Positions 12,715-63,700 of a DNA stretch of 64,000 bases are shown one piece after another (the first letter of the stretch is position 1; each line of letters starts with the position of its first letter). Source of the stretch: Chiridota heheva (Eukaryota > Echinodermata > Holothuroidea > Apodida > Chiridotidae); the NCBI GenBank assembly GCA_020152595.1, contig JAIGNY010001494.1:124001-188000 (forward strand), read 5' to 3'. The notes beneath the pieces were generated by a model. That model saw nothing but the letters and a program-made list of their open reading frames with translations, was not told where the DNA came from and ran no database searches. The position numbers and the translations under genes were made by a program.

Positions 12715-15580
12715 CCTCTCCTTATTCATAGACCACACCCCCAACTGGAACCTTAAGAAAGCCAACTGGCCCCTTCACGAAACCCTCTGCAACTCTCACA
12801 TCTCCTTGAGGGTGAGGATCCCATGTCAAACCTTAGTAACATCCTTTTCAACATCGCCACCTGTTTTATTCCCAACAAGCTCTTAACCCCAACTTCTGGT
12901 TCAATGATGACTACAAAACCGCCACCAAAACATGAATGAAGCCCTCAGAAACTTGACCATCCTCAACCTCTTTCGCATCAGCCGTGCCAAAGCCAGGTGC
13001 GCTATCAAGGACAGTAAAACAAACACTTGGAAGAACTTCCATCTCTTCTCTCACCACCAACACTCCACTAAGAAGGTTTGGAGTATGATTAACAGCTTCC
13101 ACGGCAGGATGGGCAAGTCTCCCATCTCTCCTGGAATGGTAATTTTCTCATCGGGAAAAAAGATATTGCTAACCGCCTTGCCGTCAGCAACATCTCGTCC
13201 TCTGACAACTACCCCAATGCTTTCAAAGCCAAAAAAGCGTGCGACAAAACCCGGAGTAATACTCTTCCCTCCGACAACACCGAGAGCTCCAACACCCCTC
13301 TCACCCTATCTAAATTAAAGCATGCCATCCACAACACTGGCTGAACCTCCAAGGGCCCAAATTACATCCCTTCCCTACCAGTTGCTGAAACACCTCCCCA
13401 ACAAGGCTACCCTACTCACCATCCTCAACCACATTTGGTCCTCAACACTCCTTTCCCTATCTGGAGGACAGTACTTATCAAACCGGGGAAGGACAGCACC
13501 GACCCCTCCAGCTACCGCCCCCTCCAGCTACCGCCCCATCGCCTTTACCTGCTGTCTCTGTAAAATTATGGAAAGGATCATTAACCAGAGACTAAACTGG
13601 TTCCTTGAGACCAACAGAATCTTCTCCCCTCACCAAAGCGGCTTCCGGAATTGTTGCATTACCCTGGACCAGTTAATTACGCTCAACATCGCTATCCAGG
13701 AATCCTTTGCAAAAAAGAAACACCTCATTGCCATGTTATTTTACTTCGAGAAAGTTTTGACACTACTTGGGAATGCGGCATTACCCGCAAACTTTACACC
13801 ATTGGGGCTACCTCCCCATCTTTATTCAAAACTTCCTCTCACCTAGGCAGTTCCAAATTCATATTGGCCACCCTCTCCAACTCCTACCCCCAAAAATAGA
13901 GCGGCATCCTCTCCCCTACTCTCTTCAACCTGAGCATTAACAACATTGCGGTCAACCTTGGCAACATCAAACGTGGACGACTTCACCATCTAAAATAGGA
14001 TCCAACTTAGCCTCAACCGGCTGCAAGACTGTTGCAAAAATAACAGTTTTAAAGACAAGACAGTCTGCATGTACTTCTTTCATTTCAATATACCCCACCC
14101 CAACCCGAGCCTCGTGCTCAATGGCAATCGCATCCCTAAAGTTGACCACACTTAGTTCTTGGGTTTAACCCTAGACCCTAGCTCTTCTACAAGCAGCACG
14201 TCACCAACCTGAATAAGAAATGTAACAGCTCCCTCAAATTACTCCACCTCCTCTCCAACACCATTTAGGGCGGAATCCCCACGCTCTTCTCAAAATCTTT
14301 AGGCTCATCATTCGTGCTAAGCTCAACTACGGCAATATTGTCTACTCTGCCGCTCACAAATCTTACATCAACACCATCTAAAATGAAGCCCTCGGGCTTT
14401 GCCTGGGTACCTACAGGACCCCCACCCAGTACCATCACCAGCTTTCACGTTGAGACCAACGAATCCCCTTTCTGCTAAGGTGTAGAAAGCTTAGCCTTTC
14501 CTATGCATTTAGAGCCATCACCAACACACAAAACCCTGTGAACAACCTCATGAGGTACCCCAATTTCTTCACCCTCTTTGATAGAAATAAAACCCTATCC
14601 CCTCCCTTCAGCGAACACATCAAACCCGACCTCCACCTTCTCAGCATCAATCTCGCTACTCTTGGCACCTTCTCCTGGCTCACTTTTCCTCCCTGGGCTA
14701 CTCCCTTCCCAGCCTCCTGGGCCTTGCCACTCATCACAAAATCCAAACCCACCAGCATTTCTTCATCAACCTCTACAACCAAATCAAAGACCAACTCTCA
14801 AACTACACCTCATCTATACTGATGGCTCCAAGGAAGGCGACAAGACAGCTGCTGTTGCCGTCATCCAAGACATCACCCTCAGTAGTAGGCTTCCCAAGTA
14901 CTCGGCCAAGGCCATCCTACTCGCCCTCAACTATTATTGAGTACACTCCACTCGGCCACTTTGCCATCTTCTCAGACTCCAAGTGTGTCCCACCTCCGTA
15001 AAATCCTTTTGCCCCCCCCCCTCCCCCTTCCACCCCCCCCCCTCCTCCGCGCAAGAAGATTATTCTTTTCTTCTGGATACCCAGCCATGTTGGCATCCCC
15101 GGCAATGACAGAGCTGATTTAGCCGCTAAGCTTGCCCTCAACCTCCCCCTACCCCCTTTCCCAAAACCTTTTCTGACATCAAACCGCTTATCGCTATCCT
15201 TGTTCGTGACTGCTCGCAAACCTCATGGGACTCCCAAACCTTATGGGACTCCCAAATTGATAACAAACTCCATGACATTTAGCCCACCATTCCAATCAAA
15301 CCCACCATCCACAATCTCTCCTGTATCGACGATAACGTCCACATTACCCACCTTAGAATAGGTCACACCCACCTCCCTGTCTCCCACCTTGCTGGTTCTT
15401 CTCCACCCCTTTGCAACAATTTCCATTGCCCCCTCACAGTCCACCACATCCTCCTTGCCTGCCACCTGTACAACCTCTCCAGAGCTTCCCTCACCCCTCA
15501 AAACTCCATAGCCGAGCTCATCCAGAAAAACCCTCTGGATAAAATGATCTCTTTTCTGCATGTTAAAAATTTAAGGTGCT
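12715..15580 (+). mobile_element. 5'-truncated I-type LINE (RT and RNase H), decayed
   Basis: Spread over shifting frames are a pre-RT region (ILNLFRISRAKARCAIKDSK, KVWSMINSFHGRMGK), RT finger and palm pieces (FLKHLPNKATLLTILNHIW, SYRPIAFTCCLCKIMERIIN) and an RNase H domain (IYTDGSK near 14815; FFWIPSHVGIPGNDRADLAA near 15075-15120). A C-terminal Cys/His region (CPLTVHHILLACHLYN) ends at a stop near 15578. LINEs with RNase H of this layout belong to the I-like group. ORF1 and the endonuclease are missing, so this is a 5'-truncated copy. There are many frameshifts, and a CA/GG-rich slippage tract lies at 15010-15050. Confidence 0.8.
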
Positions 15581-15584
15581 AGAT

Positions 15585-17165
15585 GAATGGGAGAAGGAAT
15601 AGGAAGGAGAGAAAAAAGAAGTGCAAAAAAGTTATAACAAAAAAAAGGAAAGGAGGGATAGGATGGTAGGGTAGAAAAGGGGTGGGTGTGGGTAAGGATT
15701 AGATCATGTGGAATAAGTTGTTATTGCGTAGGAAGTTGATGATGTTGGAGGAGGGATTGTTCTGGAAGAGATCAAAAATGGAAGTGAAGGAGAGGAGAGA
15801 TCTGGAGTTCAGGTATAAGAGACAGGTTAAGAGGGTATGCTTGATTGAGAGATCAGTGTTGCAAGTAGGGCAGGGAGGTTTGGGAGAGCCTGAACGGAGG
15901 TCGGAGTAGGTGAGAAAGGAGTGACTAAAGACGTATGGGGGTGACAACACCGCCCTATCTACTATTGCAACTGTGTAAGGGAGCATTGGTCCCAACTTTG
16001 GGATTGATAGTGTGTAGTTTGTTACTGGTCTCAAGATTCCAGGAGTTTTGCCAGGTCTTCCTGAGGTAGCTGGGAATGTTGAAGCGGCTCTGTCGGCCCT
16101 CTCGTTCGCATGGATACTGACGTGGCTGGGGAACCAGAAGAAGATTATTTTTTTTCTTTCCTGAGGAAGAAAGCGTGAAGTTTGTTTAGGATTTGTAAGA
16201 TAAGTGGATTAGACCAATGCATCTTGAAGATGCCTGTGAGAACTGATTTTGAGTCAAAAATGTATGGAACGCCCAAATTTTTAGAAAACTAATTTTTCTT
16301 CTCCAGACTGGCTCGAGTCCCACATCAGGTGGGGTCGCCGGTGTGGACCAGCCTCCTCCATCTCCCTCTATCTTTGGCATCAGCTCCAACAGTCATCTGC
16401 TGGACCCTCTTGCCAACATACTTCTCTTCCCTTCTGAACACATGTCTTTTCCATTCGAAACCTAATAAGCTCGCAAAATCTATGCTCGGAAATCATTATA
16501 TTCGTAAAATATACGTTTGGGAATCAAATATGCTCGGTTTGGAATACCTTCACGAAAAAGATATGTGAACTTCGCAATTTGTAAGTTCGCAAAACATTCG
16601 CTCGCAATCACCTTCGCTACAGTTAATGCTCGCAGTTTGCAGTCATATTTCGTGAGCCTTTTGGCGTATGCGCGGGTAAAAAACGTATTTCGTGAGCCTT
16701 TTGGCGTAAGCTCTGCGAGCATACAGATTGCGAACATATATCAAGTGAAGGTATATATTGCGAACGTGTCTTTAGCGAGCATGCAGATTGCGAACATATC
16801 TTTTGCAAGCATTTAAGATTGCGAACATATATTTACTGAGCTTATTTGTTTCTGAACATGTATGTTTCGAACATTTATGATTGTGAACATATATTTTCCC
16901 AGCATATTAGTTTTTCGAACATATATCCTGCGACCATATTGTTTCCGAACGTTAGTTTTGCGAGCGTATTAGTTTTTCGAACTTATATTCTGCGACCACA
17001 TTGTTTCCGATGATATATTTTGCGAACATATTTTATGGTCCTTTTGGCGTTCCGTGGAGAAGGAGAAGCGGGGCGGAAGGAGAGTTCTACGAAGCTTAAA
17101 GCTAGGAGGATAAGGTTTGCTTCAGCAAAGTAGATGGAGGCTCCACCTGGTAATCTTGAAGCAGG
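15585..17165 (-). mobile_element. I-type LINE 3' fragment on the opposite strand, with an inserted degenerate repeat
   Basis: On the - strand, 15699-16034 encodes the C-terminal Cys/His region (CPTCNTDLSIKHTLLTCLLY) and the final NFLRNNNLFHMI. 16080-16330 and 17050-17165 match the RNase H region of the LINE at 35.5-40.9 kb; the latter corresponds to the ASIYSAEAEAILLAL segment. Between them, about 16280-17040 is interrupted by unrelated AT-rich sequence (see the separate entry). The element is disrupted by frameshifts. Confidence 0.7.
16440..17045. repeat. degenerate tandem-like repeat around GCGAACATAT
   Basis: Words such as TTGCGAACATAT, TTTGCGAGCAT, TTCGAACATATAT and TGCGACCATATTGTTTCCGA recur every 25-30 bp or so, with heavy divergence. 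The block sits inside a LINE RNase H region. It looks like an old minisatellite or an inserted element that has decayed. Confidence 0.55.
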
Positions 17166-34409: not shown

Positions 34410-37400
34410 CTGCAAAAGGTAAACACAATATACTCAGCAGCAATGTTACACAAAACAAATGGTTAAAGGTATATCAATAGGCATCAACAAATTCAGTTCT
34501 GAAATGCTTAAAGGAATATTCCCATGTTTTTAAAGGAATATTCCCATGTTTTTAAAGGAATATTCCCATGTTTTTAAAGAAATACTCCCATGTTTTTAAA
34601 GAAATATTCCCATGTTTTTAAAGGAATACTCCCATGTTCCAATGTTTCTAAAGGAATATTCCATGTTTTTAAAGTAATATTCCCATGTTTTTTTCCATAG
34701 CCATTCATAAACAGAAAAAGTTTAGAAACAATTTAGTCCCAAAATCATGTTGATATGTTATTCCTACCAGGAGATATTCAAATTTTTAGGTTCACACAAA
34801 ATGCCAATAAATGAATAGGAAGTCTCAGTATACATCACAGCAGCACAATCTCCCACAAAAATGATGTATTTCATTAAAATCTATTATCCTTTTTTATTAG
34901 TAAAACCTGCTAGAAAAATAAATTGATGAAAGTTAGGTATTTATATACATTGCCAAATATACCCTACTTCAATAACTTTTGGAAAATTGTTTCTAATTAT
35001 ACAGAAACAACAAATTAACATTCAAAGAAATACATAAACATTTGCAATGGAATTGTCTCTATGACATCATCAAACACGAATTCATCATACTGTACAAAAA
35101 CTTTAAAATGCAATTGGGAATCTTGAAATATCCATATCTCTGAACGGAATATGATATCAACCTGATTTTTGTACCAAATTGGCTCTAGAAGTATGCTCTT
35201 TCAAATACTTTAAATTTTTATAAAACACCATGGAAATATTCCTTTAAAAATATACTACAAATAATGCACACTGCAACAAGTCCCATCAAAATCGTTTAAG
35301 AATTGACCGTTTTACAGCAGTTTAAAACTGGTTACCTAATTAGCATAAATTGCACAAATTTTGTGACCTCAGAATGGGACAACTTAAAAATTACTCATTT
35401 TGAATGGGAGAAGTTGGCTATAATAATCAGGAAATTGGATTATTATCATAACCGTGACCCAGCAGATTTACCAGTTTGGTTTGGTTTGTTGATATTTAAC
35501 GGCACCATGACAGTCAGAGTCAAATGTGCCAAGAGGGTGTTAAAATATTAAGGTGTAAGAGTAAGGGCAGAGAGGAGATGGAGAATTGAGAGGGAGAAAA
35601 GGGGGGGAAATAGGGGTAAATTGGGAGAAAAATTAGGTGAAAAGAGGTGTGTAAGGTTAGGTGTAGAAGGGAAGAGAAAGAAAGATTAGATATGGTGGAA
35701 TAGTTGTTGCTGCAGAGGAAGTCGATAATGTTGGGGAAGGATTGTTTAGATCCGAGATTGAGGTGGGTGAGGATAGAAGAGACATGGGTTTCAGGTATAG
35801 GGGACAGGTTAAGAGGATGTGCTTGATGGAGAGCTTGGTGTTGCAGGTGGGACAGGGGAGCTGGAGAGGAGATGTGAGTGGATGAGAGAGAGGTGACCGA
35901 GGTGGATGTGGTTGACAACGATGTCTTCCCTGAGATTGCGACTGCACAGGGGGGTGTTGGCCCTGACTTTGGGTTTGATGGTATGAAGTTTGTTACTGGT
36001 TTTGTGATTCCAGGAGTCTTGCCAGGTCTTACTGATGTACAGATGGAGAGATAAGAGGTCTGAGTGTGGAATTGGAAAAGGAGAAATATTATTTGACAGC
36101 ACTTTGTGGGTGGCTCTGTCAGCTCTCTCATTGCCAGGGATGCCAACATGGCTGGGGATCCCAAAAAAGATAATTTTCTTCCTTAAGTTAGGAGGAAAGA
36201 GCGTGAAGTTTGTTGAGGATTTGTAGAATGAGAGGGTTGGGCCAGAGCATGTTGAGGATGCCAGTGAATACAGATTGAGAGTCAGAGAAGATGACGAAAC
36301 GGTGGTGGAAGGAGAGTTCTATGAAGTTTAAGGCCAGGAGGATGGCCTCTGCTTCGGCAGAGTAGATAGAGGTTCCGTCGGGCAGCCTTTGGGAGAGGGA
36401 GAGGCAAAGGCAGGCGGCGGGGCTACAGAGGAGCGTTCCCATGTGGAGCTGTCCGTGAAGAGGAAGGAGTAGTGGTAGAAATGTCTACTGAGTTGGCAGT
36501 ATTTGGAGTGGAGGAAGGCTGGGATGTGGAGAGCTTTTGTAAAGGAGGAAAGACCAAGGTATACCTTGGGGAAGGGGGAGGGGGGGGGGAGGAGGTGAAT
36601 AGTTCAGGTGGGTGTGGGTGGGATGGTGTGTCTGGCAATCAAGAAAATGTTGATGTTGGCTTTTGGGGAAGTGGGAGTGCATTCGGATCCTGAAAGGTGG
36701 GGGATGTGTTTGTTGAGATTAAAGAGGTTGGTGAAGGAAAGGGAGTGGATGAAATGGAAGCAAGGGTTCCGTGGATCGGTGAGGATGCAGAGAGCAAGAC
36801 AAGGCGGGCCTTTGTGCATCTGAAGTCGAAGGGGAGTTCGTTGGCCTTGACATGGAGACTGGTGATGGGGAAGGTGTGAATGGGGCAAAGCCTTAGGCTT
36901 TCAGTGAACTCCAGGTGTTTCAAGTAAAGTTTGTGGGTGGAGGCGTAGATGAAGTTGCCATAGTCCAGCCTGGATCTGAGAAGGGAGTGGCATAAGGTCA
37001 GCAGGGTGAGACGATTGGCTCCCCAGTCAGTGCTGGAGAGGACCTGGAGGAGATTGAGAATTTTGTGACAGTTGGTTTTGAGAGTGTTGATGTGGGGGAG
37101 ATAGGAGAGTTTGGAATCGAGAGTGATTCTGAGAAAACAAGATATTGTCTTTACTGGGGATTATAGAATCTTTGAGGCAGAGATTGGGGCAAAGGAAAAA
37201 GGAATTTTTGTTGTTGAAATGGATAAGAACAGTTTTGAATTTTGAGAAGCTGAAACTGTTGGAATTGTTCCAGTGAGCCAGGCTGTCCAGGCAGTGTTGT
37301 AGATTATTTTGGAGAGTATGGAAGCATGAGGAGGATGAGTAGAGAGTGAAATCGTCGACATAGAGTGAGCATTTGATGTTGGGGGTGAGAGTTTTGGTGA

Positions 37401-40400
37401 TGCTGTTAATTCTGAGGATAAAGAGAGTGGTGGAGGGGATGCTGCTTGGGGACACCTAGTTGTTGGGTATATCTTTGGAAGTAAGTGTTTACTCTACAGT
37501 GGCAGGAATGAAGAAAATTCTGGAAGAAGGTGGGGAGGGGGCCTCTGAGGCCGGAGGAGTGAAGGTCTCTTAGAACACCATACCGCCAAGTGGTGTCAAA
37601 GGCCTTTTGAGGTCAAAGAAGATAGAGATGGCATGATGATTTCTGATAAAGGCTTCATGGATGTAGGTGTCAATGTTGAGGATGTGGTCCAGGCAGTTCC
37701 GGTTTTTCCTGAAACCATTTTGAGTGAGGGAGAGGATGGAGTTCTTCTCAAGGTACCAGCAGAGCCTGTTCTTGACCATATGTTCCATAATCTTGCAGAG
37801 GCAGGAGGTAAGAGTTTGTTTGCTTGTTTGATAAGGGCTTAACGGCACCACAACAACGAGCGTCAAATTGTGCCTGAGAGGTTAGATCATTCTAGAGGTA
37901 GGAAGGAAGGAAAACAGGCGGAGAATGAGAGAAAAGTTAGGGAAGGGAATGACAATAGCTGTCCTCCAGATAATGGGGAAAGGAGTGTGAGGACCAAATG
38001 TGGTTGAGGATGGTGAGTAGGGTAGTGGTGTCCTTGTTGGGGAGGTGTTTAAGGAACTGGCAGGGGATGTTATCTGGGCCCTTGGAGGTGCAGCCAGCAT
38101 TGTGGATGGTTTGGTTAATTCAGAAAGGGTGAGAGGGGTGTTGTAGCTCTCGGAGTTGTTGGAGGGAAAGGTGATACTTCTGGCTTCATCGCAGGCTTTT
38201 TTGGTTTTGAAAGCATTGGGGTAGTTAGAGGTAAGAGTAATGGGCCGGTAGTTATTGGGGTTGGACCTGTCTTTGTTAGGCTTGGGAATGGGGGTACTGA
38301 TGGCCTCTCTCCAGGTGTTGGTTAAAGAGTGTGAGGACCGCAGGTAATTGTAAATTTTGAGGATGTCTAGAGAATTCCTGGGGAAAAGAGACAGATAGCT
38401 TTGTCCTTGAGGGAGATAGCTTTTTTGCAGTCAGTGGTGAACCAGGGTTTGAAGTTCTGTGGGGTGAAAGTGAAAGTGGGGATAGTGAAATTGGCGACTT
38501 CCAAGATCTTGGAAGTGAAGAAAGAGATGGGTTTATTGGAGAGAAGGATGTCATTGGTGATGGAGATATTAAACAGAGTGAAATAGAGGTCTCATGTACA
38601 AAACCTTTACTTGGTTGGGGAAGGGTGTGACGAGGGGGGAAGGGTGGAGATGAGGATGGAGAAATGGTCACTCCCGCAGGGTGAAGGGTGAAGCCTCCAG
38701 TCTGAGAAATTGACAAAGAGGGAAGGGTCGCAGATGGAAAGGTCGAGGTTGGTGAAAGTGCCAGTACCTGGGTGTAAATAAGTGGGGGAGTTGTTGTTGA
38801 GGAGGCAAAGGTGGTTCAGGAGATTTTCAAATTGTTTTCCTCTGGCAGTAGAGGTGGAGGAGCCCCAAAGGGGCTTGTGTGTGTTAAAATCACCTGTTAG
38901 GATGAAGGGTTTGGGAAGTTGGGAGATGAGGTTGCAAGGTCAGAGGGGGTGAGGGGGAGTTGGGAAATGTAAAGGTTGCAAAAAGTGATGGTTTTGTGTA
39001 AGGTGGCGAGATAGCAGGTAGCCTGGAGTATGGATTGGATTAGGATGGGGCTCGAGGGGATGTCATTTCTAAATAAATAGAATAGCCACCAAAGGCTCTT
39101 CTGGCGTTTTGGGTGATAAAATCAGATCCTGTGTACGCTGGGATGGGGATAGAGTTGGGAGAGGAGATTAAGGTTTCTTGTAGGCAGGTAATGCTTGGGT
39201 TGAAGGCAGAGATCAGAAGTTCAAGTTCTTCAAAGTTGGCGGAGAGACTGCAGCAATTTCATTGTATAATGTCTGCCATTTAAACGTGATGTGGAGAGAG
39301 TGACTCCCGAGGGGGCCAGAGTCCAAAGGGGTATGTCCGACCTTCATGTCTTGGAAGGGATTGTGATCAATGAAGGGGAGGGTCAAAGAGGAATAAAGTC
39401 TGATTGAGGAGTCTTCCCCATCATTGAGAAGTGACTTGGGGGGTTTGGTGTTGAGTAGATGGTGTCACGAGTTCGGTAGGTTTGGTTCGTTGAGGGGGTT
39501 CTGTTGGTGTTGGGTTGGGTTTTTTGGCTTGAATGGTGGGTGGTAGAAGGTAAGGTTGAGGAGGGTTGAGGTGGTCTGTGTCGGTTGGCAGGGAATCTGT
39601 GGATGTTTTGTGAGTTGTCTTTGGTTATTCGTTGAGTTGAGGTGGTCTTGTAGGAATTGAGATCTTTCGGGGGAGAGGGTTTGTTTGTGAAATGGTTTTT
39701 TCCTGGTGTGGAGGAGAAATGCAGCATGGTGGTGTGAGGGGCCTGAGGTGTTGATGGATGAGGAAGAGGTAGAGTGGGGTGGGTGTGGATGTAGGGTGGA
39801 GTAAGAGCAGTCTTTCCCTGAGTGGAAAATTGGTCGACCCAGACTATGTTGGTCTGGACGCCCTTGGAGACAGTGCGGGTGGGTGGGGAGGATGGGGTGG
39901 TGGTTGGTGGTTGGGTTGGAGTGGGTAATGATTTGGAAGTAAGTGCGGGTGTTTTGGTTGAGTTGGTTTGGGGATTAAGAGTCCAAGATCTTTCTGGCCT
40001 CGGGGTAGGAGACATTTTGAAGGGTTTTTATCCTGGATACCTCTTTCTCACTGAGCCATTAGGGGCAGGATGTTGGAGAAGGCGGGGTGATTTCTAGAAC
40101 AATTGATGCAGTTGGGTGCATTATTGCAGGTAGTGGTTTCGTGGGAGGGAGAGCCGCAGGAGGCACAGCGGGTTGGTAGCGGCAATTGTTTTTACTGTGG
40201 CTGTATCTTTGGCAATTTTGGCATCTAAAGGGGGGTTGGGATGTAGGGGGAGATAGGAACATTGAGGTAACCGACATGGATGGAGGTGGGGGGAGGGGGG
40301 GTGTTGAATGTGAGGAAGTAGGTGTTGTGTCTGAATTGTGGTGTTGTTTCGGAAGAGAGTAAGTTGTCAAACGTCTGTGACACCTTGTGGCTTCACTTCA

Positions 40401-43400
40401 GCTTTGATTTCCTCAAGAGGGTGCCCTGAAGATCAAGGCATTTGATGACCCCCTTGGAGGAGTTGAGGTAGCGGTGAGGGGAAGATGTTAACTCCAGTGT
40501 TTGCAAGGGTGGTGGAAACCAGGGAAGTTTTGACTGGCTGGAGGTAGAACATTTCACAAGGTCTCTGAATCTCAGGCGTTTGATATGGTTGGGAATACCT
40601 ATGAGGCCTTGCAGGGCTTTAGTGAGGGTGAACAGTGAGAGGGATTTGAGGCCTGCATCGCGGGGGAGAGGGGGGGGGGTGGAAGACTATGATGAACTTT
40701 GGTAGGGAGGAGTGGTGGGAAGATAAGAGAGGAGAGGGGGAGGATTGGGGAGGCGAGAAAAAAGAGGCTGAAGGGGTGAGGAAGGTCGTTTAAGGTGCTT
40801 CAAAGAACGAACTGAAATTTGAGGGGAGAAACTGTCGTTGCAGATAGGGGGTGCAGTGTACCACCCCGCAGTTTACTGAGAGTTTTGAATGTTTGACAAA
40901 TGCAGTTTAGGAGGAAACTCCTCCGTGTAGTTGAATTGGTTAATTCGTGCCAGCACTTGGATAGAGGAGAGTAACAGCCAGGTGTTAGACGCTAACATTA
41001 CCCGTAAGTTAAATTAATATAGTAAAAATGTAATTATTATTATGATCATGAAATTGAGAGCGCAGACTAAGATAAGCCACCGAGCGTTTAAATGTTGTAT
41101 TCACTTAATGTGACAAGTTTAGCAAGGGGTGGGAAGGAGGAAGGGGGGGGGGGGGAAATGAAACGATACGTATTAGGAAAGTAGAGAAATGTTATAGTTT
41201 GAGTAAACGTTCCGTAAATGTAGGTAAAGTACAGATGAGTATAGGTTCGTGTAATTCAATGCTTTACCTTATACGAACAATCTGTGAAGAATTGATTAAA
41301 CTAGGTTATGTGTATATACTCATGTGTTAATGTTATCAGGTGTTTAGCTCATGCAACACCTTGCGCATTCCAGGCAGGAGTGGAGTAATATTTGAGGTGT
41401 CCTTACCTAGTGGCAATCAGGACATTCCCTTGTTATGGTATTTATTTCCTTGCTACATTGAACTGAATGTGAGGTCACTTATGTTAATGAAGCAATTAAA
41501 TATTTAGTCTTAATCAGTTTAGGTATATGTCAAGTGCTAATCAAAGCCACGAGTTTGAAGAATTTATTTTATCGTGATGGGCGTTAGGCCTGAATGAACT
41601 CGCCAATCTTTAGAAATCATTGTTATTTGCCGTAGGCCAAGAGGGTAAAAGTCAATAGTGAAATATATTGTACGTTTAAATCATTAAAATACAATGCACT
41701 ACGGTATGATGAAATATTGTACTTAATCAAAACCGATTAAACGAAAGTGCTTTAAGACAAGTAATTGAAGCCAGCTTGAAGCCAGAAGCAACAAAAAGGA
41801 GTGAGGAAGGAGGGGAGGTGAAAAATGGCAGCAGATACTCCAGGAGCAGTAGTATGTAGATGAAAAAAGTGGAAAACCCAGGTGGAAAAGGAGGTAAAGG
41901 AAGGTAAGGAGAAGCCTGGGAGCTACCCCCACTGGGCGGCAAGCCCCTGTGCAATGTGTGTTAGGCTAGGCGGAGGATAGGCGTAGGCCGAGGAACAAAT
42001 TATCTGAGAACATTTGATATTTGTGAGTTGGGATAGAAATATAAAGATTTACATTAAAGAATTTGAGGTGTATTCCTGTTCATACATCATCACTTCTGTG
42101 CACGTTTTTATATAAGTTTGACTCATAATTTACAAACTTAAAGTGCTGTTGTTACCATTCAAAGATAGTTCTACTAAGAATATAATGAATGCTCTTTCAT
42201 TTGGATCAAAATCATGCAAACTGGGTTAGAAAGGTGATGAACATTATCCTCATCACACATACTGAAGATCTAACTCATACTGGCCCATATATTGCTGAAA
42301 GCAAAATTAAAGTGATAGAATGACCATGAAAAGTAAACAGACAAGACACTAGTGTTTACGACACCCACAAGCAACAAAAAGTAAAATTGTACTTATGTGT
42401 GAAGAGTTGTCCATACCACACAGAGATGATGACCACTTTATACATTTCCAGGTGTCATACCAGGAAATATCCTTTGGAATATATGTTCCGACAAAACATA
42501 ATAAGGTGTGATCAGGGCAAAGCCCCAAGATGTCATCTTTTATGTTTAAGTTCTTTTCATTGAAATACCTTTTTGTTCTATCAACATGTGTAGTCCATCA
42601 ATTCTACATGTTTGTAACACCACTAGTTATGCAGGACTGACAGTAACTCAGCATCATCTTTAAGAGCCTTTTTTCATAATTCAAAAACTGATTTAGTCCG
42701 AAATTAAAGTTTGAAATATTTAACAATTAAGCTTTGAAGTGAGTCAACAACCATGACAATTGAACATTATTTTAACATTCATCATTGTGCAACATTTTCA
42801 GGTCCTAATATTAAACACTTTATACAAATGTGTGACATTTGATGTCCATCCAGTAAGTTGAACCATTTACCATTTGTTAGCTCTTTTCCTATTTATGCAT
42901 CACTAGTATTCATACAAGAAAATATCCGAAGTCACAAGTCAGATCCGAAGTCACAAGTCAGAAACTAGATACATCATTATCAGAAATTAGATACATTATC
43001 ATCAGAAACTAGATTAATTACTATCAGAAACAAGATTAATTATTATCAGAAACTAGATACATTATCATCAGAAACTAGATAAATTACTATCAGAAACTAG
43101 ATACATTATTATCAGAAACTAGATACCATATTTTCATGATAATAATTTGGTACTTCTCAGATTGTTATGCTTTTTTAAAATGCAAAATAAAGCAAATGTT
43201 TTGTAGCTGTGCTGAATTGTAGTAGCTCAGTGGTAAAGCATTTGAATTGTACTCCAAAGGTACTGATCTGCACCTTACTTCCAATTGCTCCAGTTGACTC
43301 TGCTGTGAAATGAGTACCATTCCCACTCTGCACCTTACTTCCGATTGCTCCAGTTGACTCTGCTGTGAAATGGGTACCATTCCCACACTGCACCTTACTT

Positions 43401-49400: not shown

Positions 49401-52400
49401 AAAGTGTAGTGGTCCCATAGTGTAGTGATCCCGTACTGTTGTGATCCCGTAGTGTGGTGATCCCGTAGTGTGGAGATCCCATAGTGTAGTGATCACATAG
49501 TGTGGTGATCCCATAGTGTAGTGATCCCATAGTGTAGTGATCCCATAGTGTTGATCAGAACATGAAATAAGTACATGTACCTCTATAAGCTCTAACTTTG
49601 TCAATTTACATAACCCCAATCCACGCCAGTGAGTTTCATCAACAAAAACCATCTTACTTTTGATCTTCCTTGCCCCCTCATGTTTAAAACCTTCAGAATT
49701 ATCCACTTTCTGACAGATCTCTTCCAAGTTTATATCATTATTTTTTGGGTTATTCAGGCTAGGCATTCATTGTTTTGAGTTCAAGGTGAAAACGTAACCT
49801 TTGGCCCAGGCCCGTAGCACCGTTTGTTTTAGTGGTGCGGCGATGTTGATACTATCTAGTTTGAGCGCCACCATTGGTTGGATGGCGAGCGTGGAATTTT
49901 TGTTGTTGAAAAAAGGTACCTCTAGATTGCCAGAAATGACACTTCCCGGTCTTGCAAGCTGTATTTGAACATCCTCTATTTTGGACTTAATATGTGAATA
50001 GGTCTATCTGTTTTGTCATTAAATGGATCGTTCGACTTTACACAAAATTATGCCAACCACGTTTCTTTAAACTGTCAAAGTTTATTTTCATACAGAACAT
50101 GTTTATCATAATCATATCACAATATCAACAGATAACAGTAATTTATTTTCTTTCAAAAAGCACAATTTAACGAGTCAACTGACCTAGTTCTAAAGGCAAA
50201 ATATGTTTGGGCAAATTTATAAAGAAATACAACTTCACACTTCTGACTTTACCCTGAAAACGTATCGTATGTATTATTTTTTTCACTTATGGAGGGTGTA
50301 GAGACCATATCCTTGCCGACACTCACATCTAAACCACCATTTTTGTGGGGAGAAGGGGGAGGGATTTGAAAATTTGAGCTCCATTTCCTTTTTTTTTCAT
50401 GCTATTATCAGATGTGTTAATCCGTGAACTTTGCCCTGTCATTTTTCAAAATATGGGGAGGGGGAGGTTATTCTCTTGATATATCATAAATAAATCAACT
50501 TGAACTGTTGAACCTTGTTTGTTGTCACATCAATTTCAGTCTGATTTGATGATATTGGTAATCTATCCAAAGTATCGATGGCAACAAGAAAGTCCAACAA
50601 AATGTTTAGATAATTTTTCAGATAAATTATGGAATGAAGTAAGCTTGTTTTTAACAAAAAAACTAAAATGATAAACTGATAGTCTTATAGGATAATATTT
50701 CGTAATCTATACAAAAGTTTCACTGAATTCAAGGACACGAGAGTAACGAGACTATAGGCCTATTCCTGTATTCGACTATTTGCGAGCTTGGAGAAATGAT
50801 CCAAAGACTGCATGACGGTGAGCAGTGTCGGCAAATTCACATGCTATTTTCGTCAGATCCAAGCTATCTGTCGTGTCTTTGTGGACATGGAGGACAAGTA
50901 GATGGTTCAGTCGTTTCTGTTTCATGGTGGCTCCTATGTACGCCTTGATGCGTTTCAGAGCGCTGAAAGAACGTTCGCCACACGCGTTTGTAGCTGGCAT
51001 GACAAGTACAAGTTTAAGCAAAATGCACACTTCAGATAGAAGCAATTTCGTACTGAAATCTAAAGACTTCATATACTTCACTATATCAGGAAGCGAATAC
51101 ACTCTGACACTGGTACATTCAGGCGGTTTACATGTGTGACCCAGCGTTTCCAGCTAGACTCTGAGTTGACTTGAATCAATGTCGTCTTTGTAGAAATCAG
51201 AAACGAAGTGAAAATCCTCCCCAATTCCTTTGCCATTACATGCATTTAGGAGGAGGTTCTATAGCTTGACATAGGTTTGGTACCCCGTCTGCTTAAAACA
51301 ATCTCGTATGCAGTTAACGATGTTGTCGATAGCCTCTGTGTAGATTCGCTTGAAATACTCCTTCGCACTTGCAGGTTGATCATTAATAGAAGGACCATCA
51401 AGCCGGATTGGGACTTTTCTTCTTCGTGGTGTCTCTGGTTGGTTCACATTGAGTGTAGAAGCAAGTAATCCTACGGCCTCCCAGAAAGTGTCGAACTGAC
51501 TTCGTATGCCTTCAATAGTAGAAACGGTTTTCTCTGCGACACTCTGCCCTTCCACAGCAGAAATGTATGCATGTTGCAAAGTCCTACTCAAATTGTCATT
51601 ATGACTTAGGATCAGGTGTGCTAACTTCATACCAAATAAGAAATCAAACTTCTTCATGTACGAAGCCACACCTCTCAGTCGACCCTTTGTGCTAGGATCC
51701 TTTTCCTCCAAGAGACACTCCTCCCAAACATTCTGTAGAACTTCGTAGTTTTCCAGAATGCTCTCCGAAGTGCATCTGCTCTAACTGTCCATTGAGTTGG
51801 ACACATGACACGGATTCCAGTGGAGCACTCCTTCCCAATCCTCTCCTTCATCTCGATAAACTTAGTTCCACGTCGGGGGGAGTTCCTAATTAGTTTGGTA
51901 ATCTCCCTTGTATTTTCCAAAGCATCACACATTAGCCGGTTTCTCTTTATAGTGTCACCACATGCAAGATTAAGGGCATGGCCGTAGCAATGTGTATACA
52001 AAGCCTTTGGTTGTTCATCTGTTATCTTCTTTGCAACACCTCCATGTACACCCGACATGGGAGCCGCTCCATCATAGCATTGACCTCTTGCCTTTTGAAG
52101 GGATAACTGCATTCGAAGGAGAACATCTTTGATGACGGCAACTAATGCATCGGCGGTTGTTGAAGACACTTCATACAATCCAATGAAATCTTCATGAACT
52201 TCAAACTGGTCGTCGACCCACTTTATGCATATCACAACCTGTTCCTTGTTGGAAACATCGGGGGTTTCATCCACCATAATTGTATAGAATGAAGCTGTCT
52301 GGATATTTGAAACAACCTCACGTAAAGCCTATAAAAAAAGAAATGGTGCATATAAAACATAAGCACGGGTGTTAGTAACTGTACGTGCGCGCTAATCGCC

Positions 52401-55400
52401 AATTGTGGCTTTAAATGATATTTAAAGGGTCTGGCGAGTTATACCATTTTAACGAATTATACCATCTTATTTTATTGGAAATTAGTACACAAATGTTTAA
52501 AGAAGCATGCTCAACGCACACTTGCATGGTACATATCCTTATAGATGGGAGTAGATATGTCCCAAAAGAGATTTACAAATGAAAAGGAAGGCGAATGCGA
52601 TAGTGACGCGTAACAAAAATAAATAAATAAACGAAAAACTAACATGAATCTGCGCCCCATGCAGCTTAAATTGAAAATTCAAACAAAAAATATAGCAGCA
52701 CTTCAGAACCATTTTTGGGGGGTGGGGTGGGGGTAAGAGTGATAGTCTGGATTTTTTTATAACGATGGTCCCCTGCACCCACGTCGATATTTCCTTTGTT
52801 CTGCTGCAATTGGTATAGTGATCCCAATCTTATTTTCTGTTCCTCCGACGCTGGGGAGGGGTTAAGTCTTTGCTATTCTGTCTTTCTTTGCGCAATTATG
52901 AAATATCTTTCGCCGCCTAAAATGTATTATTGAATTAAGTCTTACCGTTAGTGCCATTGTCTGTAAAATTTCGTTTTGAATTTCAACAGAGAGATACTTG
53001 TCAGATTTCCGTGATAACCAGTTTTAAATCCGTGAATCATCTTCACCACGCAACTTGAAAAGAGTTATAAGATTAGAATCCGACTCATCCCCATCACCCC
53101 TGAAAGCTAGTCCTTGCCGTGCTAGGAATCTCACATTAGAAATGATTTTCATAAAAATTTGTCGTCTCTCTTCCCTTTCTCTTCCAATCTGTTGTGATAA
53201 ACTTTCTCCAATGTCTTTAGTTATCTTTGGCAATGTCACAACCATTAAGACTGCATCCTTGTGGCAAACACTACCTTCATGTGCCTTGAACCTCCGAAGT
53301 CGCTTCTTTCCAATTTTTAAAGCCTTTGTTTTTAGCGATAAATGCGGAATCCATGTTTGGTGAATTAAGCTTCTTTGCCTTGTATGCCTTGATGCATGTA
53401 TAGCAGAATGCCATATCATTTGATTCGTCATAATGCAGCCAAGCAAACTGGTTGAACCAACTTGGTTGGAAACGCGAAGTTCTGGTTTTTTCTGTCCAAA
53501 ACTTCCTTTGGGAAATTGATTACTGGTTGATTTGGTGTGTTCCCAATGTCCGGAGTTGTTATAGAATAATCCATCTTAACTCGCTCTGTCCTTTATTAAA
53601 TTTCTGCATATAAAATAAAACGCGACTTCTTTAGCGTACAGGTAGGTCTAGCCTAGATCACCGCACGTGTATGGTGCGCCGAGTGTGCCATATGTCCACA
53701 ACTCGACCGTGACTCCAAGTTGTATAGTTTCTCGCTCTGTGATTGGATAAGCAGCCTAATTTGCATCTGATGTCGACTCCAAGTTGTGTTGATTTCATGC
53801 AAATTATGTCGACTTGAAATCAATACAACTTGGAGTAAACGTGGACTTAAGCTCGTAAAGAAAAACTTCACAACTATGCCATGCTTGCTCTTATTAGTTT
53901 AAATTACACGCGTACACGTGCCAACAGATTGGACAGTTCAGGTGGGGATAGTGTTGCGCATTCTTACGAATTACCAATATAAGCGGGTAGTACTTGGAGG
54001 GGGTATTCCCTCAGAAAATACTGATATTTTTGTATTGTTAAAAAAATTCATATTTATATTATTATTATTATTATTATTATGTTATCTATTAAAAAGTGGT
54101 GCGATCGCCATGATCAGCCCGTAGCGGCTGCTACGGGCCTGCTTTGGCCACCTTCGTTGGTGAAGACAATTAAGCAAAGGACCTAGAAGGTGGACTCACC
54201 TGCAACCTCCTCTTCAGCTTTAACCTTGGCTTTATGGAAGTCCTCTTTCACCACAAATTTCTCTTTTTCAAACTTAACATTCAGAGTTGATACAGCTCCC
54301 TGGAAACATACAATAAAGCAAAGTAAATTGCTGAGTAAATGCTTACTTTAAAATCTAATTGTGCACCAAAGACAGAGGGGATATAGCTTGGAGCTATTTG
54401 GAATTAGATATCAATTTATGAAGTGTTCTAGCCCACCTATAATTGTTATATATGGCCAACAAAATGGTACACATGGTTTCAAATATTGAATATAAGTAAG
54501 TGATTCAGTTGACCTGAAGAATGCACAATATGTGATTCAGTTGACCTGAAGAATGCAGTGTGTGATTCAGTTGACCTGAAGAATGCAGTGTGTGATTCAG
54601 TTGACCTAAAGAATGCACAGTGTGTTATTCAGTTGACCTGAAGAATGCAGTGTGTGATTCAGTTGACCTGAAGAATGCACAGTGAGTGATTCAGTTGACC
54701 TGAATAATCCTACTTTAAACCTTAAAGGCCCAGCTTGATGTTGTTGTTGTTCAAGGGCTTTTTAAACATATTTCTCTTGAAATGTTACGTGTTACAATCA
54801 CAGATTGTTTGAAAGCTAAGACTTTGTTCTTTTCATTCATGTAAAAACAAATTGCATATTGTATGCACATTGTATGCAAATGAGGTTAGTTAAGTAGCAT
54901 GCTGCTATTACAAAATAACAGACTTGAAACTCCTGTTGCTTTAGGCCCTTAAAACTCATTTCTGAAAGCATTTTTGGATTTCTCAGAAAGTAAGCTTTCA
55001 AATCATACCAAACATGAATATTTAGAACTAAGAATTACTTTTTTAAAAGATTTTTTGCCATTTTTGCTCATCGCGGATAACTTCCGCATTGAGTTTACTA
55101 GTTAACACTAGGTCTATCCTAACACAGTGAACATAATGGCCCACGCTTACCATATAACTAAAGTGTGACAAACTGCCCATTTGTTTGCAAATTGTGATGA
55201 ATTGGTGGGGCTATGCAACAAACTGTATGTCATTTGATAGATTAGCCTCTACTCTTCCATTTACTGTACTAAGAAGGTAAAAGCTACATTCTGACGAAAA
55301 GTTATGATTTTTGAACCAGAACCAAAAGGTTTTGTGGTTCCGATGCTTTTTTTCATAAGCAGATTGATTTGCAAAATTTGTATTATCTGTCATGTCATTG

Positions 55401-58400
55401 CACAGGCCTATCATTATATATTTGTTCCATCATATTTAATCATAAGCCACACCCACCATGCAGATCAATAAAAATGTTGACAACATCAGCAGGTGCACAA
55501 TAACTAACAACATTATCATAGCAAGTACGATGCCAGAACGGTTGCTCATTTATCCTATTTCAAGAATTTATCAGTAAGCCCTGCTTACTCATTAATATTC
55601 CTGACATCACTACCACAACATTAGAACATATGTACAGATCATGACCCATGATATAGCATAAATCTGATATATCGTTCATGAAATGCAGTATGTTTACTTT
55701 ACATTTAGGACATTCACATTAAGCCATGCCCACCATGCATATCAATGCCATATTCTGATAATATAAGCATGTACAAAATAACCAACAAAATTATCTTGCC
55801 CAATATGACACAAAACAGACATACAGTTGCTCATTTTTAATTTTTCAAGATTTTCACTTTAAGCCCCACTCACTTATTAATATGCATATCACCACCCAAA
55901 ATGATTAAACACAAATACAGACCATGGGCTATCTGTGTACCAAATATGACATACATCCAGCTGACCGATCTTGAGATACCGTGTTTACAAATTCAATTCA
56001 GGAAAATCATATTAAGCCCCGCTTACTCAACGTTTTAAAATCATGAACATGGACACACAAGCTAACATAATTATCCTAAATATGAAACAAAACAGATATG
56101 CATTTGTTAATATATAAACATTTCAAGATTTTTACATTAAGCCCCACCTACTCATTAATATGCACGATATCACCACCAAAAACAATAGAGCACATCTACA
56201 GACCATGAGCTATCTGTGTACCAAATATGACACGAATCCAGTTAACCGTTCGTGAGATACCGTGTTTACAAGTTCTTTTCAGCAAAATCATATTAAGCCC
56301 TGCCTACTATGCATATGAATGAAATTCAATATTTTTACATTAGAATATGTACACACAAGCTAAAATTATATTTATACCAAATATGAAATAAAACAGACAT
56401 AAGGTTGTTAAAATATAAACATTTCAAGATTTTTAAATTAAGCACAACCTGCTCATTAATATGAATGACATCACCATCAAAAACAATAGGGCATATCTAT
56501 GGACCATGGGCTATCTGCGTACTAAATATGACATGAATCCAGCTTACCGTTCTTGAGATACAGTGTTTACAAGCTTTTTTGAGCAAAATAATACTAAACT
56601 TCGCCCATTAAGCATATTAATGAAATTCAACGTTTTTACATTATGAACATGGGACACATCAGCTAACATCATAATTACAAAAATATGAAACAAAACAGAC
56701 ATGTGGTTGCTAAAATATGAACTTTCAAGATGTTTACATTAAGCCCTGCCTACTCATTAATATGCATGACATCACCATCAAAACTAATAGGGCATATCTA
56801 CAGACCATGGGCCATCTGTGTACCACATATAACATGAATATATAGAGCATCATTCTTGAGATATCGTGTTTATGAACTGGCTGTCACAAACATACATACA
56901 TACACCCACACATACACACACGCCATCATGACTGCATAGGTTCCTAATGCTATCGCATCGGAACCAAAAAAGAGGGTAAAAATTTGTATTTTTAACATAC
57001 TTTCAAATCTTTTCAGGGTTTACCCAAAATCTATCAGAATTAAACAAATTGATCTTTCTCAAATTCTACAAAACAATTGTGAAGTTGAAAGGTGATTTCT
57101 AAGTATCTTTCTAATTATTTTCAAATCGTTTCAAATTTTGCACACTTTTGAACAATTTTAAAAAATCCTCCATGTTTAGACAAAATTTACACACAAATTC
57201 TTAATATAGACCTACTGGTAAAAATACCATTAATGGAGAGAGCAAAGCGAGCTCTTTTGAATGATACTTAAATCATCCCTGTGAGAATTTGGTATGTCCC
57301 AAAACTATTTTGGGAAAACTGTAAGTCCAATCGAATTGCCAGTTCGGTGTGGGCCTTCAAGGGTTGATCTAAACATACATCTCATGGACACTACTTTCTG
57401 TGCGTAACTGTTGTAGAACAAAGTTTTTTCCCACTTTCACGGGCTAAGTTGCAAACTGGAAAAAGGGAGATCATAATTTGTAATTTTGAAGTTGATAGGT
57501 GATTTCTAAGTATCTTTCTAATTATTTTCAAATCGTTTCAAATTTTGCACATTTTTGAACAATTAAAAAAAATCCTCATGTTAGTATTTTTTGCTCATTT
57601 CCTACTTAAGTCACTACTATCTATAAACTATACGGTCTGTATTTCATAATTTTATACAAACTATCTGAATCAGAGATTTGTTAAATAAATACAACCATCA
57701 ACAGATATAGCACCTACCCTGTATCTTTCATATTTCTGCAGGAGAGATTTCACTTCATGATGCTGAAAGAGGAAAAAAGGCACTTTCTTACATTGTTTGC
57801 GATATAAAACCAGCAAGTCAACTCAGCACAGCCGGTTTATTAGGCACTCCTACATACATGCAGTACAGATTAATATTATGTGTAAAGCATAAGGGAACAC
57901 CAGTTATATAATGATCATTGAATTAAAGCTATTTAAATAAAACATATGTGTATGAAAATATGCATATAAAGATGACACCCATATAAATATATAGGCATGC
58001 CCTACTGCAATAACCTAGGGAACTGACATGTCAAAGGTTACTCACCACCTCCTTTTCTCTGCTCTCAATCTCCAGTCTCAATTTTGTGTTTTCAAGCAAT
58101 CTGGTGTACAGCATTAAGGTATAGAGCATTAAGGTGTAGAGCATTAAGGTGTAGAGCATTAAGGTGTAGAGCATTAAGGTGTAGAGCATTAAGGTGTAGA
58201 GCATTAAGGTGTACAGGATTAAGGTGTACAGCATTAAGGTGCACAGCATTAAGGTGCACAGCATTAAGGTGCACAGCATTAAGGTGTACAGCATTAAGGT
58301 GTACAGCATTAAGGTGTACAGCATTAAGGTGTACAGGATTAAGGTGCACAGCATTAAGGTGTACAGCATTAAGGTGTACAGCATTAAGGTGTACAGCATT

Positions 58401-61400
58401 AAGGTGTACAGCATTAAGGTGTACAGCATTAAGGTGTACAGCATTAAGGTGCACAGCATTAAGGTGTACAGCATTAAGGTGTACAGCATTAAGGTGTACA
58501 GCATTAAGGTGTACAGCATTAAAGTGTACAGCATTAAGGTGTACAGCATTAAGGTGTACAGCATTAAGGTGTACAGCATTAAAGTGTACAGCATTAAGGT
58601 GTACAGCATTAAGGTGTACAGCATTAAGGTGCACAGCATTAAGGTGTACAGCATTAAGGTGTACAGCATTAAGGTGTACAGCATTAAGGTGTACAGCATT
58701 AAGGTGTACAGCATTAAGGTGTACAGCATTAAAGTGTACAGCATTAGGGTGTACAGCATTAAGGTGTACAGCATTAAGGTGCACAGCATTAAGGTGTACA
58801 GCATTAAGGTGTACAGCATTAAGGTGTACAGCATTAAGGTATAGAGCATTAAGGTGTAGAGCATTAAGGTGTAGAGCATTAAGGTGTAGAGCATTAAGGT
58901 GTAGAGCATTAAGGTGTAGAGCATTAAGGTGTACAGCATTAAGGTGTAGAGCATTAAGGTGTACAGCATTAAGATGTACAGCATTAAGGTGTAGAGCATT
59001 AAGGTGTAGAGCATTAAGGTGTACAGCATTGAGGTGCACAGCATTAAGGTGCACAGCATCAGCATTAAGGTGCACAGCATTAAGGTGTACAGCATTAAGG
59101 TGTAGAGCATTAAGGTGTAGAGCATTAAGGTGTAGAGCATTAAGGTGTACAGCATTGAGGTGCACAGCATTAAGGTGCACAGCATCAGCATTAAGGTGCA
59201 CAGCATTAAGGTGTACAGCATTAAGGTGCACAGCATTAAGGTGCACAGCATTAAGGTGCACAGCATTAAGGTGTACAGCATTAAGGTGTACAGAATTAAG
59301 GTGCACAGCATTAAGGTGCACAGCATTAAGGTGCACAGCATTAAGGTGTACAGCATTAAGGTGTACAGAATTAAGGTGTACAGCATTAAGGTGTACAGGA
59401 TTAAGGTGCACAGCATTAAGGTGTACAGCATTAAGGTGTACAGCATTAAGGTGTACAGCATTAAGGTGTACAGCATTAAGGTGTACAGCATTAAGGTGCA
59501 CAGCATTAAGGTGCACAGCATTAAGGTGTACAGCATTAAGGTGTACAGCATTAAGGTGTACAGCATTAAGGTGTACAGCATTAAAGTGTACAGCATTAAA
59601 GTGTACAGCATTAAGGTGTACAGCATTAAGGTGTACAGCATTAAGGTGTACAGCATTAAAGTGTACAGCATTAAGGTGTACAGCATTAAGGTGCACAGCA
59701 TTAAGGTGTACAGCATTAAGGTGTACAGCATTAAGGTGTACAGCATTAAGGTGTACAGCATTAAGGTGTACAGCATTAAAGTGTACAGCATTAGGGTGTA
59801 CAGCATTAAGGTGTACAGCATTAAGGTGCACAGCATTAAGGTGTACAGCATTAAGGTGTACAGCATTAAGGTGTACAGCATTAAGGTGTACAGCATTAAG
59901 GTGTACAGCATTAAGGTGTACAGCATTAAGGTGTACAGCATTAAGGTGTACAGCATTAAGGTGTACAGCATTAAGGTGTAGAGCATTGAGGTGTACAGCA
60001 TTAAGGTGTACAGCATTAAGGTGTACAGCATTAAGGTGTACAGCATTAAGGTATAGAAAATTGAAAGATCATAATACTACTTTCAGCTTAAGACCTAAAC
60101 TTTATCATCATGAGAGAAAAATATACATTCCTTTGAAATTAAAAGTAAAACATATCTTATATTAATTCAATGAAGCATTTCACATTCTGACAATTGGGCA
60201 ATATGAAATCTTATTATATAAATGTCAAAAAATGACAAGACTGCTATGCTTAAGTATTTGTAGAAGTCTAAACTGTGGTATGAGTGATGTAACAAGCAAA
60301 CTCATTTGGGAGCTCATCCCTCAGCCTTCACTGAGCCCTGCTAAAAAACTATTTCTATTTTTTTTTCTATTGACTTCAAAATTCAAAATCAAATCGAGTC
60401 ATATCATGAATCTAAACAGTGGCTGAAAGATTAACTTTTTTGTCAAATTATGTCATGGAAATAAAACCCAGAATCTGCCATGGAGTTGCCTGCTCTTCAT
60501 TATGAAGTTGCATGCTCTTCATTATGAAGTTGCGTGCTCTTCATTATGAAGTTGCGTGCTCTTCATTATGAAGTTGCATGCTCTTCATTATGAAGTTGCG
60601 TGCTCTTCATTATGAAGTTGCCTGCTCTTCATTATGGAGTTGCCTGCTCTTCATTATGGAGTTGCCTGCTCTTTCATATGAGAGCCAAGCATTTGAACTA
60701 CTGTACCTTAGTTCCTTGGAAACTTTGATGGGCAATGGTTAGGAGAAAGCATTAAGGATTAGAGAAATGTATGCACAAATTCTATGAAATTGTTGGTTGT
60801 TTGCTGTTGCAGGTGTACCCTTTTGTGTGCCGACAAATGCTTGATCTTTTTGAAGGTTTTTGACAAGGATACAGTGCTTCCTCTCTGGTTCCGTAGTTTT
60901 CTAACGCTTTGAGCCTAGCCTTGATGAGCAAATTCAAAACCTTGATTTCTGTTTGAACCTCTCTTTCTCTTGCCTCCTCCGCAGACTCAGAAACAGCACT
61001 TTTGACTCTCCTGTGATCATGAGCGCAGGCAGACCCTGCAAACCGATGTTCCTTGAACTTTGCACTGCCTGATGTGACGGTGAATTCCTGGGGAGCTAAA
61101 AGCAGAGATGATCATTAAATGAACTCTGAATGTGACGGTGAATTCCTGGAGAGCTAAAAGCAGAGATGATCATTAAATGAACTCTGAAATGCAGAGAATT
61201 GCAGCAAATTTTCACAAATAGGTAAAAAAACTACTCAGAATTTTAAACAGAGTTAAGCACAACTTAACAAATGTAAACCAAGTATGCAGAATGTGACGGA
61301 GAAATTAATGACACAATCAGGCAAATTATACCCACATTAATCAAACTTTGAGGAAAGCTTAGTACCCTAACAACAAAAGTATTACTCAAAGGAGATTTCC

Positions 61401-62576: not shown

Positions 62577-62908
62577 CTGCAAAAAGATATGAACAGAGAA
62601 CAGTTGAAAACATGGCAAGCAATGCATTCTATTGATAAAAATCATTCCCTTATATGCACACAGTTTGAATTAAAGGACTGGTGACAAGCAAGTTTGCTTT
62701 AAACTGATGTTTGACACTCATGGAATACTTAGTAATCCCTTTTTCTCCAAAATAATAATTGTAAAAGTGTGAAAATCACATATTTTTTTTTATTGGCCGT
62801 GGTAATTATTCAAAAGTGGGAAAATAGCAAATGGTTGAGCCACTTTTATAATTCAATGAAGAAAAAACTCAACTAAGTGTATTAAAACAGAGCACAATTC
62901 CAGATTGA

Positions 62909-63700
62909 CATCCCCACTGCCACACCTAACCCATCCCCACTGCCACATCTAATCCCCACTGCCACATCTAATCCACATCCCCACTGCCAAACCCCACTGC
63001 CACACCTAACCCACATCCCCACTGCCACACCGAACTCACATCCCCACTGCACCATCCAACCCACATCCCCACTGTCACACCTAACCCACATTCCCACTAC
63101 CACACCTAACCCACATCCCCACTGCCACCTAACCCACATCCCCACTGCCACACCTAACCCACATCCCCACTGCCACACCCAACTCACATCCTCACTCCAC
63201 CATCCAACCCACATCCCCACTGCCACATCTAATCCACATCCCCACTGCCAAACCCCACTGCCACACCTAACCCACATCCCCACTGCCACACCCAACTCAC
63301 ATCCTCACTGCACCATCCAACCCACATCCCCACTGCCACACCTAACCCACATCCCCACTGCCATACCTAACCCACATCCCCACTGCCACACCTACTGTAA
63401 CCCACATTTCCACTGCCAAACCCAACTCACATCCCCACTGCACCATCCAACCCACATCCCCACTGCCACACCTAACCCACATCCCCACTGCCACACCTAA
63501 CCCACATCCCCACTGCCAAACCCCACTGCCAAACCCCACTGCCACACCTAACCCACATCCCCACCGAACTCACATCCCCACTGCACCATCCAACCCACAT
63601 CCCCACTGTCACACCTAACCCACATTCCCACTGCCACACCTAACCCACATCCCCACTGCCACACCTACTGTAACCCACATCTCCACTGCCATGCACACCT
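62909..63700. repeat. 24/25-bp minisatellite, about 32 copies
   Basis: The unit is CCACATCCCCACTGCCACAC plus CTAAC, with CACCATCCAAC, CCAAACCC and CCTACTGTAA variants. Higher-order blocks are visible: an AACTCACATCC(C/T)CACT, CACCATCCAACC sequence of units recurs near 63030, 63180, 63300, 63425 and 63575. The C-rich strand is +, giving strong strand asymmetry. It is upstream of exon 1 and probably in a 5' intron. Confidence 0.95.

Follow-up and report, generated by a model that had tools for sequence, protein, structure and literature searches.

A review of U12-type introns places the optimal branch-to-acceptor distance at 11–13 nt and notes that these introns have no distinct pyrimidine tract (PMC3584512); in authentic members of the class, AG is avoided as the last dinucleotide of the exon (PMC10853781). 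AG-free repeats giving long AG exclusion zones (AGEZs) are also already in print: in PMC1431707, an AGEZ of 369 at a human exon is attributed to an AG-less repetitive element, and the AGEZ of PTP sigma is given as 1126. For a repeat in dog LHX3, contraction is reported to leave a putative branch site unaltered. Here we analyze a 64,000-nt window of the holothuroid Chiridota heheva (assembly GCA_020152595.1, contig JAIGNY010001494.1, positions 124,001–188,000), whose minus strand carries a gene of the DUF4618 family with a 15-bp minisatellite in the intron before exon 3. Sequence and homology make it quite probable that this is a U12-type GT-AG intron whose branch-point segment grew into a minisatellite of 129 units. 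Our literature search, from which subscription papers were mostly absent, returned no report of a U12 branch-point minisatellite.

Minus-strand exons joined by reading frame match DUF4618 (PF15397) with an E value of 3.9e-27 (95.8 bits; cut-off, 34.9), which supports the start of exon 3 at 58100 proposed in a first-pass annotation of this DNA. The first base of exon 3 completes the codon opened in exon 2, and the acceptor CAG adjoins the last array unit, as that annotation had also stated. The junction comprises the following features:

60873–61087, minus strand: upstream coding exon (exon 2), ending in ...GCACT, phase 2, and reading in frame into exon 3; the start at 61087 is putative.
58101–60872, minus strand: intron of about 2.77 kb, predicted U12-type GT-AG, from sequence and homology.
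60864–60872, minus strand: 5' splice site GTATCCTTG, near the U12-type consensus RTATCCTTT, with the only GTATCCTT of the window.
58128–58134, minus strand: next CCTTAAT copy, with its second A at -29.
58113–58119, minus strand: acceptor-proximal candidate U12-type branch-point core CCTTAAT, whose second A is base 58114 (-14).
58101–58103, minus strand: 3' splice site CAG, whose AG adjoins the last repeat unit.
58046–58100, minus strand: exon 3, beginning (A)TTGCTT.. and translated as LLENTKLRLEIESREKEV, placed by frame and DUF4618 homology.

The open frame of the upstream exon contains 16 GTs, seven of them in the phase required by exon 3, and we scored all seven on PF15397. The donor at 60872 (CT/GTATCC) gave the best score (96.7 bits) and was the only one of the seven to reach profile position 1; in the resulting junction fragment, residues 55–104 align with profile positions 1–50 (50 to 50) with no net gap. 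The remaining six donors scored 88.8, 85.2, 87.3, 91.9, 87.6 and 88.9 bits. With the 60872 donor retained, using the next AG as acceptor lowered the score to 83.3 bits, and omitting exon 3 lowered it to 77.4 bits. A weak family match near 29.3 kb (26.1 bits, below the cut-off) was taken as the last exon to define the gene span. Human C20orf96 is presumably a relative; no literature linking C20orf96 with U12-type introns was found, and none on DUF4618. At the acceptor of the upstream exon, a 58-bp tandem duplication (61072–61188, two copies) includes TTTTAG/CCAG and places two similar acceptors close together.

The signals at both ends of the intron point to the minor spliceosome. The donor GTATCCTTG fits the U12-type consensus RTATCCTTT at eight of nine positions, differing at the last base, and the exon ends in CT rather than AG. 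Near the acceptor, CCTTAAT matches the core CCTTRAY and lies at -14, near the U12-type optimum. The weak pyrimidine tract reported in the first-pass annotation is borne out by a pyrimidine fraction of 0.60 before the acceptor and a longest run of 4. In five other introns examined, the pyrimidine fraction was 0.65–0.80 with longest runs of 4 to 15, the U12-type core was absent from the last 45 nt and AGEZs spanned 22–38 nt. Donors like GTATCCTTG are among the examples in PMC7367187.

A search of the genome for minor-spliceosome components, which covered U12 and U6atac, located genes for U12 (116.9 bits, two loci) and for U6atac (115.9 bits, two loci). As a control, we used UFD1, for which a table in PMC7367187 gives a U12-type phase-2 intron in human. 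A UFD1 exon was located in this genome by its domain (63.7 bits). A nearby exon was recognized by its resemblance to the human protein, and the intron presumably stands at the same place as in human. The junction reads NPKAV/GTATCCTTC ... ATCCTTAATGTGTTTAACAG/LEN; the intron is 3805 bases long and ends in TATCCTTAATGTGTTTAACAG, after which the frame resumes as AVLENILRGFACL. Its CCTTAAT has the second A at -13, with a pyrimidine fraction of 0.60 and a longest run of 5. The species thus appears to use the GTATCCTT donor type together with the CCTTAAT core, which the two introns share. A second U12 control was sought in the E2F family, where a U12-type intron was established in none of five loci examined.

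The array makes up nearly the whole of the AG-free stretch described below; it and its upstream edge are placed as follows:

58103–60052, minus strand: 15-bp minisatellite, period 15, 129.2 copies, 94% matches; split here into 129 units.
60050–60055, minus strand: TATACC at the upstream end of the array, which together with TACACC (58103–58108) may have seeded the first duplication.

The commonest gene-sense unit, CTTAATGCTGTACAC, accounts for 69 of the 129 units. There are 12 unit types; none contains AG, TTAAT is present in 124 of the 129 units and the array holds 116 CCTTAAT cores. Relative to the commonest unit, the types comprise nine distinct substitutions, six of them transitions, and a 21-base unit that occurs twice. 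Rare unit types come back in a repeated order, with a longest exact repeat of 12 unit types at a distance of 69 units; variants thus spread by duplication, and there were fewer independent changes than there are variant units. Since the longest exact repeat covers only 12 units, we rejected block duplication of half the array. Substitutions fall within the core (C1T, T2C, T3C, C15T) and elsewhere in the unit alike, so that the copies show no sign of constraint. A 31-base array probe gave 122 matches in the genome, and every place among the matches listed falls in this array; a search for a second genomic copy of the exon 3 region gave one match, the locus itself.

Three observations bear on the origin of the array. 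The unit holds the branch-point core at the spacing of a U12-type intron, and the acceptor AG abuts the final copy. CCTTRAY would occur on a given strand in only 0.36% of random 15-mer units, which makes an unrelated array at this acceptor unlikely. With TTTTCTATACCTTAATGCTGTACACC at the upstream edge of the array and TATACCTTAATGCTGTACACCAG at the end of its downstream edge, TATACC and TACACC bracket one period and could have seeded slippage. Local amplification of the intron's U12 branch-point segment is the most likely source of the minisatellite. The short segment from branch point to acceptor would have been copied in place, with TATACC and TACACC as possible sites of slippage, and then expanded to 129 units, up to the acceptor AG. 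U11/U12 probably pair with GTATCCTTG and with the last CCTTAAT, whose A lies at -14, and the first AG downstream of the branch would serve as acceptor. Only the last one or two cores probably act; the copy at -14 is well placed, the one at -29 perhaps so, and the others are not. The further copies would be neutral passengers with no visible harm, because the AG-free unit offers no nearer AG to a branch at any copy. The consensus unit does place AC ends 8 and 10 nt past the branch A; GT-AC pairs appear disfavored according to PMC3584512.

Several observations weigh against a U12-type intron with an amplified branch-point segment. The window contains a single GTATCCTT, against 2.25 expected by chance, so that its position counts, not its presence, and the donor at 60872 leads the runner-up by a modest 4.8 bits (96.7 versus 91.9). 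The U12-type class was proposed only after the donor had been seen. The longest pyrimidine run of 4 is equaled by that of the D-E intron. The full branch-point consensus is TTCCTTRAC, and the core lacks both the upstream TT and the final C. The core is predicted to pair weakly with the U12 of this genome (-4.9 to -7.4 kcal/mol, against a median of -5.1 for the best of random 60-mers), and three of the five other introns pair better. The UFD1 control also deviates from the full consensus and pairs weakly (-6.5 kcal/mol); pairing energy does not discriminate as a test of intron class, and we set it aside. Finally, the genome is rich in repeats, and CCTTAAY occurs often in tandem within it (6377 matches versus 4008 for the reversed pattern); this count includes many matches per array, and no conclusion was drawn from it.

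The first-pass annotation had described an absence of AG over about 1.97 kb before the acceptor CAG and had left open whether selection against cryptic acceptors or the low chance of the few mutation types present accounts for it. A dinucleotide scan of the window confirms the absence: on the plus strand, the CT that starts at 58101 is followed by no other until 60077.

58103–60076, minus (gene) strand: AG-free zone, 1974 bases between two AGs.

CC and CG on the plus strand are also absent throughout the array. The commonest unit lacks AG, CG, GG, GA and TC; GA and TC have since arisen in the array, and AG, CG and GG are still absent. A random 15-mer unit of the same composition is AG-free on a given strand in 35% of cases. 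In simulations, arrays evolved by random substitutions and by duplication of blocks, in a model without CpG hypermutability or indels, and we accepted runs with 9–15 unit types whose consensus share and length matched those observed (5567 of 173,396). AG was absent from 1440 of the 5567 accepted arrays (26%), CG from 547 and GG from 2923; in 515, three or more of the five dinucleotides failed to appear. All of AG, CG and GG were missing in only 81, which counts against pure chance.

Selection keeping the array AG-free is the first alternative to be weighed, and we regard it as unlikely. Besides the rarity of the joint absence, it draws on a comparison within the gene span, where gene-sense AG occurs in all 10 other arrays counted (3 to 136 each) and in none of the acceptor array, and on the consideration that an AG 8–20 nt past a CCTTAAT could serve as a U12 acceptor. 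However, most of those other arrays have longer units or hold AG anyway, and GG and CG are missing from the acceptor array too, though they are not acceptors. Because 26% of matched simulations stay AG-free, selection on AG is not needed, and we rejected AG absence as a sign of it. The makeup of the repeat unit itself mainly accounts for the lack of AG. The array itself exceeds chance, whereas the absence of AG does not, and the AG-free zone by itself is ordinary. Eight 5-kb stretches sampled at random from the genome had maximal AG-free runs, taken strand by strand, of 79–1138 nt; in two of these stretches the longest such runs are AT repeats.

Two other arrays in the window also lack particular dinucleotides. 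One, at 2219–8059 (5.8 kb, with a different 15-bp unit), is GG-free throughout, with GG missing for 6032 bases around it, and overlies a 1574-base gap between AGs on the plus strand. The other, a 25-bp array upstream of the gene (62908–63667), is AG-free on the plus strand, with an inter-AG gap of 836 bases.

An ordinary U2-type intron, its acceptor served by yUnAy branch points in the AG-free minisatellite, was the view of the first-pass annotation. The recurrence it described holds, as TTAAT fits yUnAy in 124 of the 129 units, and the copy at -29 lies at a usual U2 distance; the weak U12 pairing and the other exon donor just 4.8 bits lower on homology also speak for this account. But the homology-favored donor lacks AG at -2 and -1 and G at +5 and reads GTATCCTT, the pyrimidine content is the lowest of the six introns examined, and this genome's UFD1 intron carries the same signals. 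The donor and the CCTTAAT at -14 point to the minor spliceosome, the U2-type reading of the yUnAy motifs is probably wrong, and we consider such an intron distinctly improbable.

Even less probable, in our estimate, is an active role for the repeated sites, which might raise the odds of U12 binding or act as decoys that slow the intron or soak up U12 small nuclear ribonucleoprotein, so that copy number tunes the gene. Each transcript would carry 116 CCTTAAT cores, and more than 100 U12 branch sites competing before one acceptor could conceivably let copy number tune or titrate U12-dependent splicing, a prospect to which we give equally little credence. The substitutions inside the core as outside it, with no sign of constraint on the copies, and the weak predicted U12 pairing speak against such activity. 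That the array is coding is very improbable, although two minus-strand frames traverse it (681 and 658 codons, the first continuing in frame through exon 3), because a stop-free 15-bp unit yields open frames for free and array units replacing the upstream exon score 87.9 versus 96.7 bits and start at profile position 21.

At 58034–60076, it is the 15-bp length of the unit that keeps these two frames open across the array. Elsewhere in the window, frames at 12900–15600 (plus strand), 35500–40700 (minus) and 50800–53500 (minus) resemble retroelement and hAT-type transposase proteins; a Pfam scan of two of them gave no match.

If the intron before exon 3 is indeed U12-type, it would be a natural experiment on the choice of the minor spliceosome among many identical branch sites, would show how far that spliceosome searches for AG and would reveal a route by which minisatellites are born from splice signals.

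Compared with known systems, the intron is like the large AGEZs of PMC1431707 in that its zone is long since the repeat is AG-free, and the human 369-nt case likewise has a candidate branch point, at -17. Unlike those zones, it extends to about 1.97 kb and its unit itself carries the branch-point motif; the PMC1431707 cases are not described as U12-type in the available text of that paper. With the distant-branch-point exons in the same paper it shares a long AG-free stretch (1974 bases), but their branch point lies far upstream, whereas here good candidates stand near the acceptor (CCTTAAT at -14 and -29); because the one at -14 is well placed, there is no need to invoke a distant branch point. 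In the UFD1 intron of this genome, GTATCCTT and CCTTAAT are identical and the acceptor spacing agrees within 1 nt, but there is a single copy of the core, and AGs stand 42, 63 and 79 nt before the end of the intron. With U12-type GT-AG introns at large, as described in PMC3584512, PMC7367187 and PMC10853781, the intron shares the GTATCCTT donor, CCTTRAY near the acceptor, a weak pyrimidine tract and the lack of AG at the exon end. It departs from them in that its core flanks are off consensus and in that its putative branch-point segment is present about 129 times over 2 kb.

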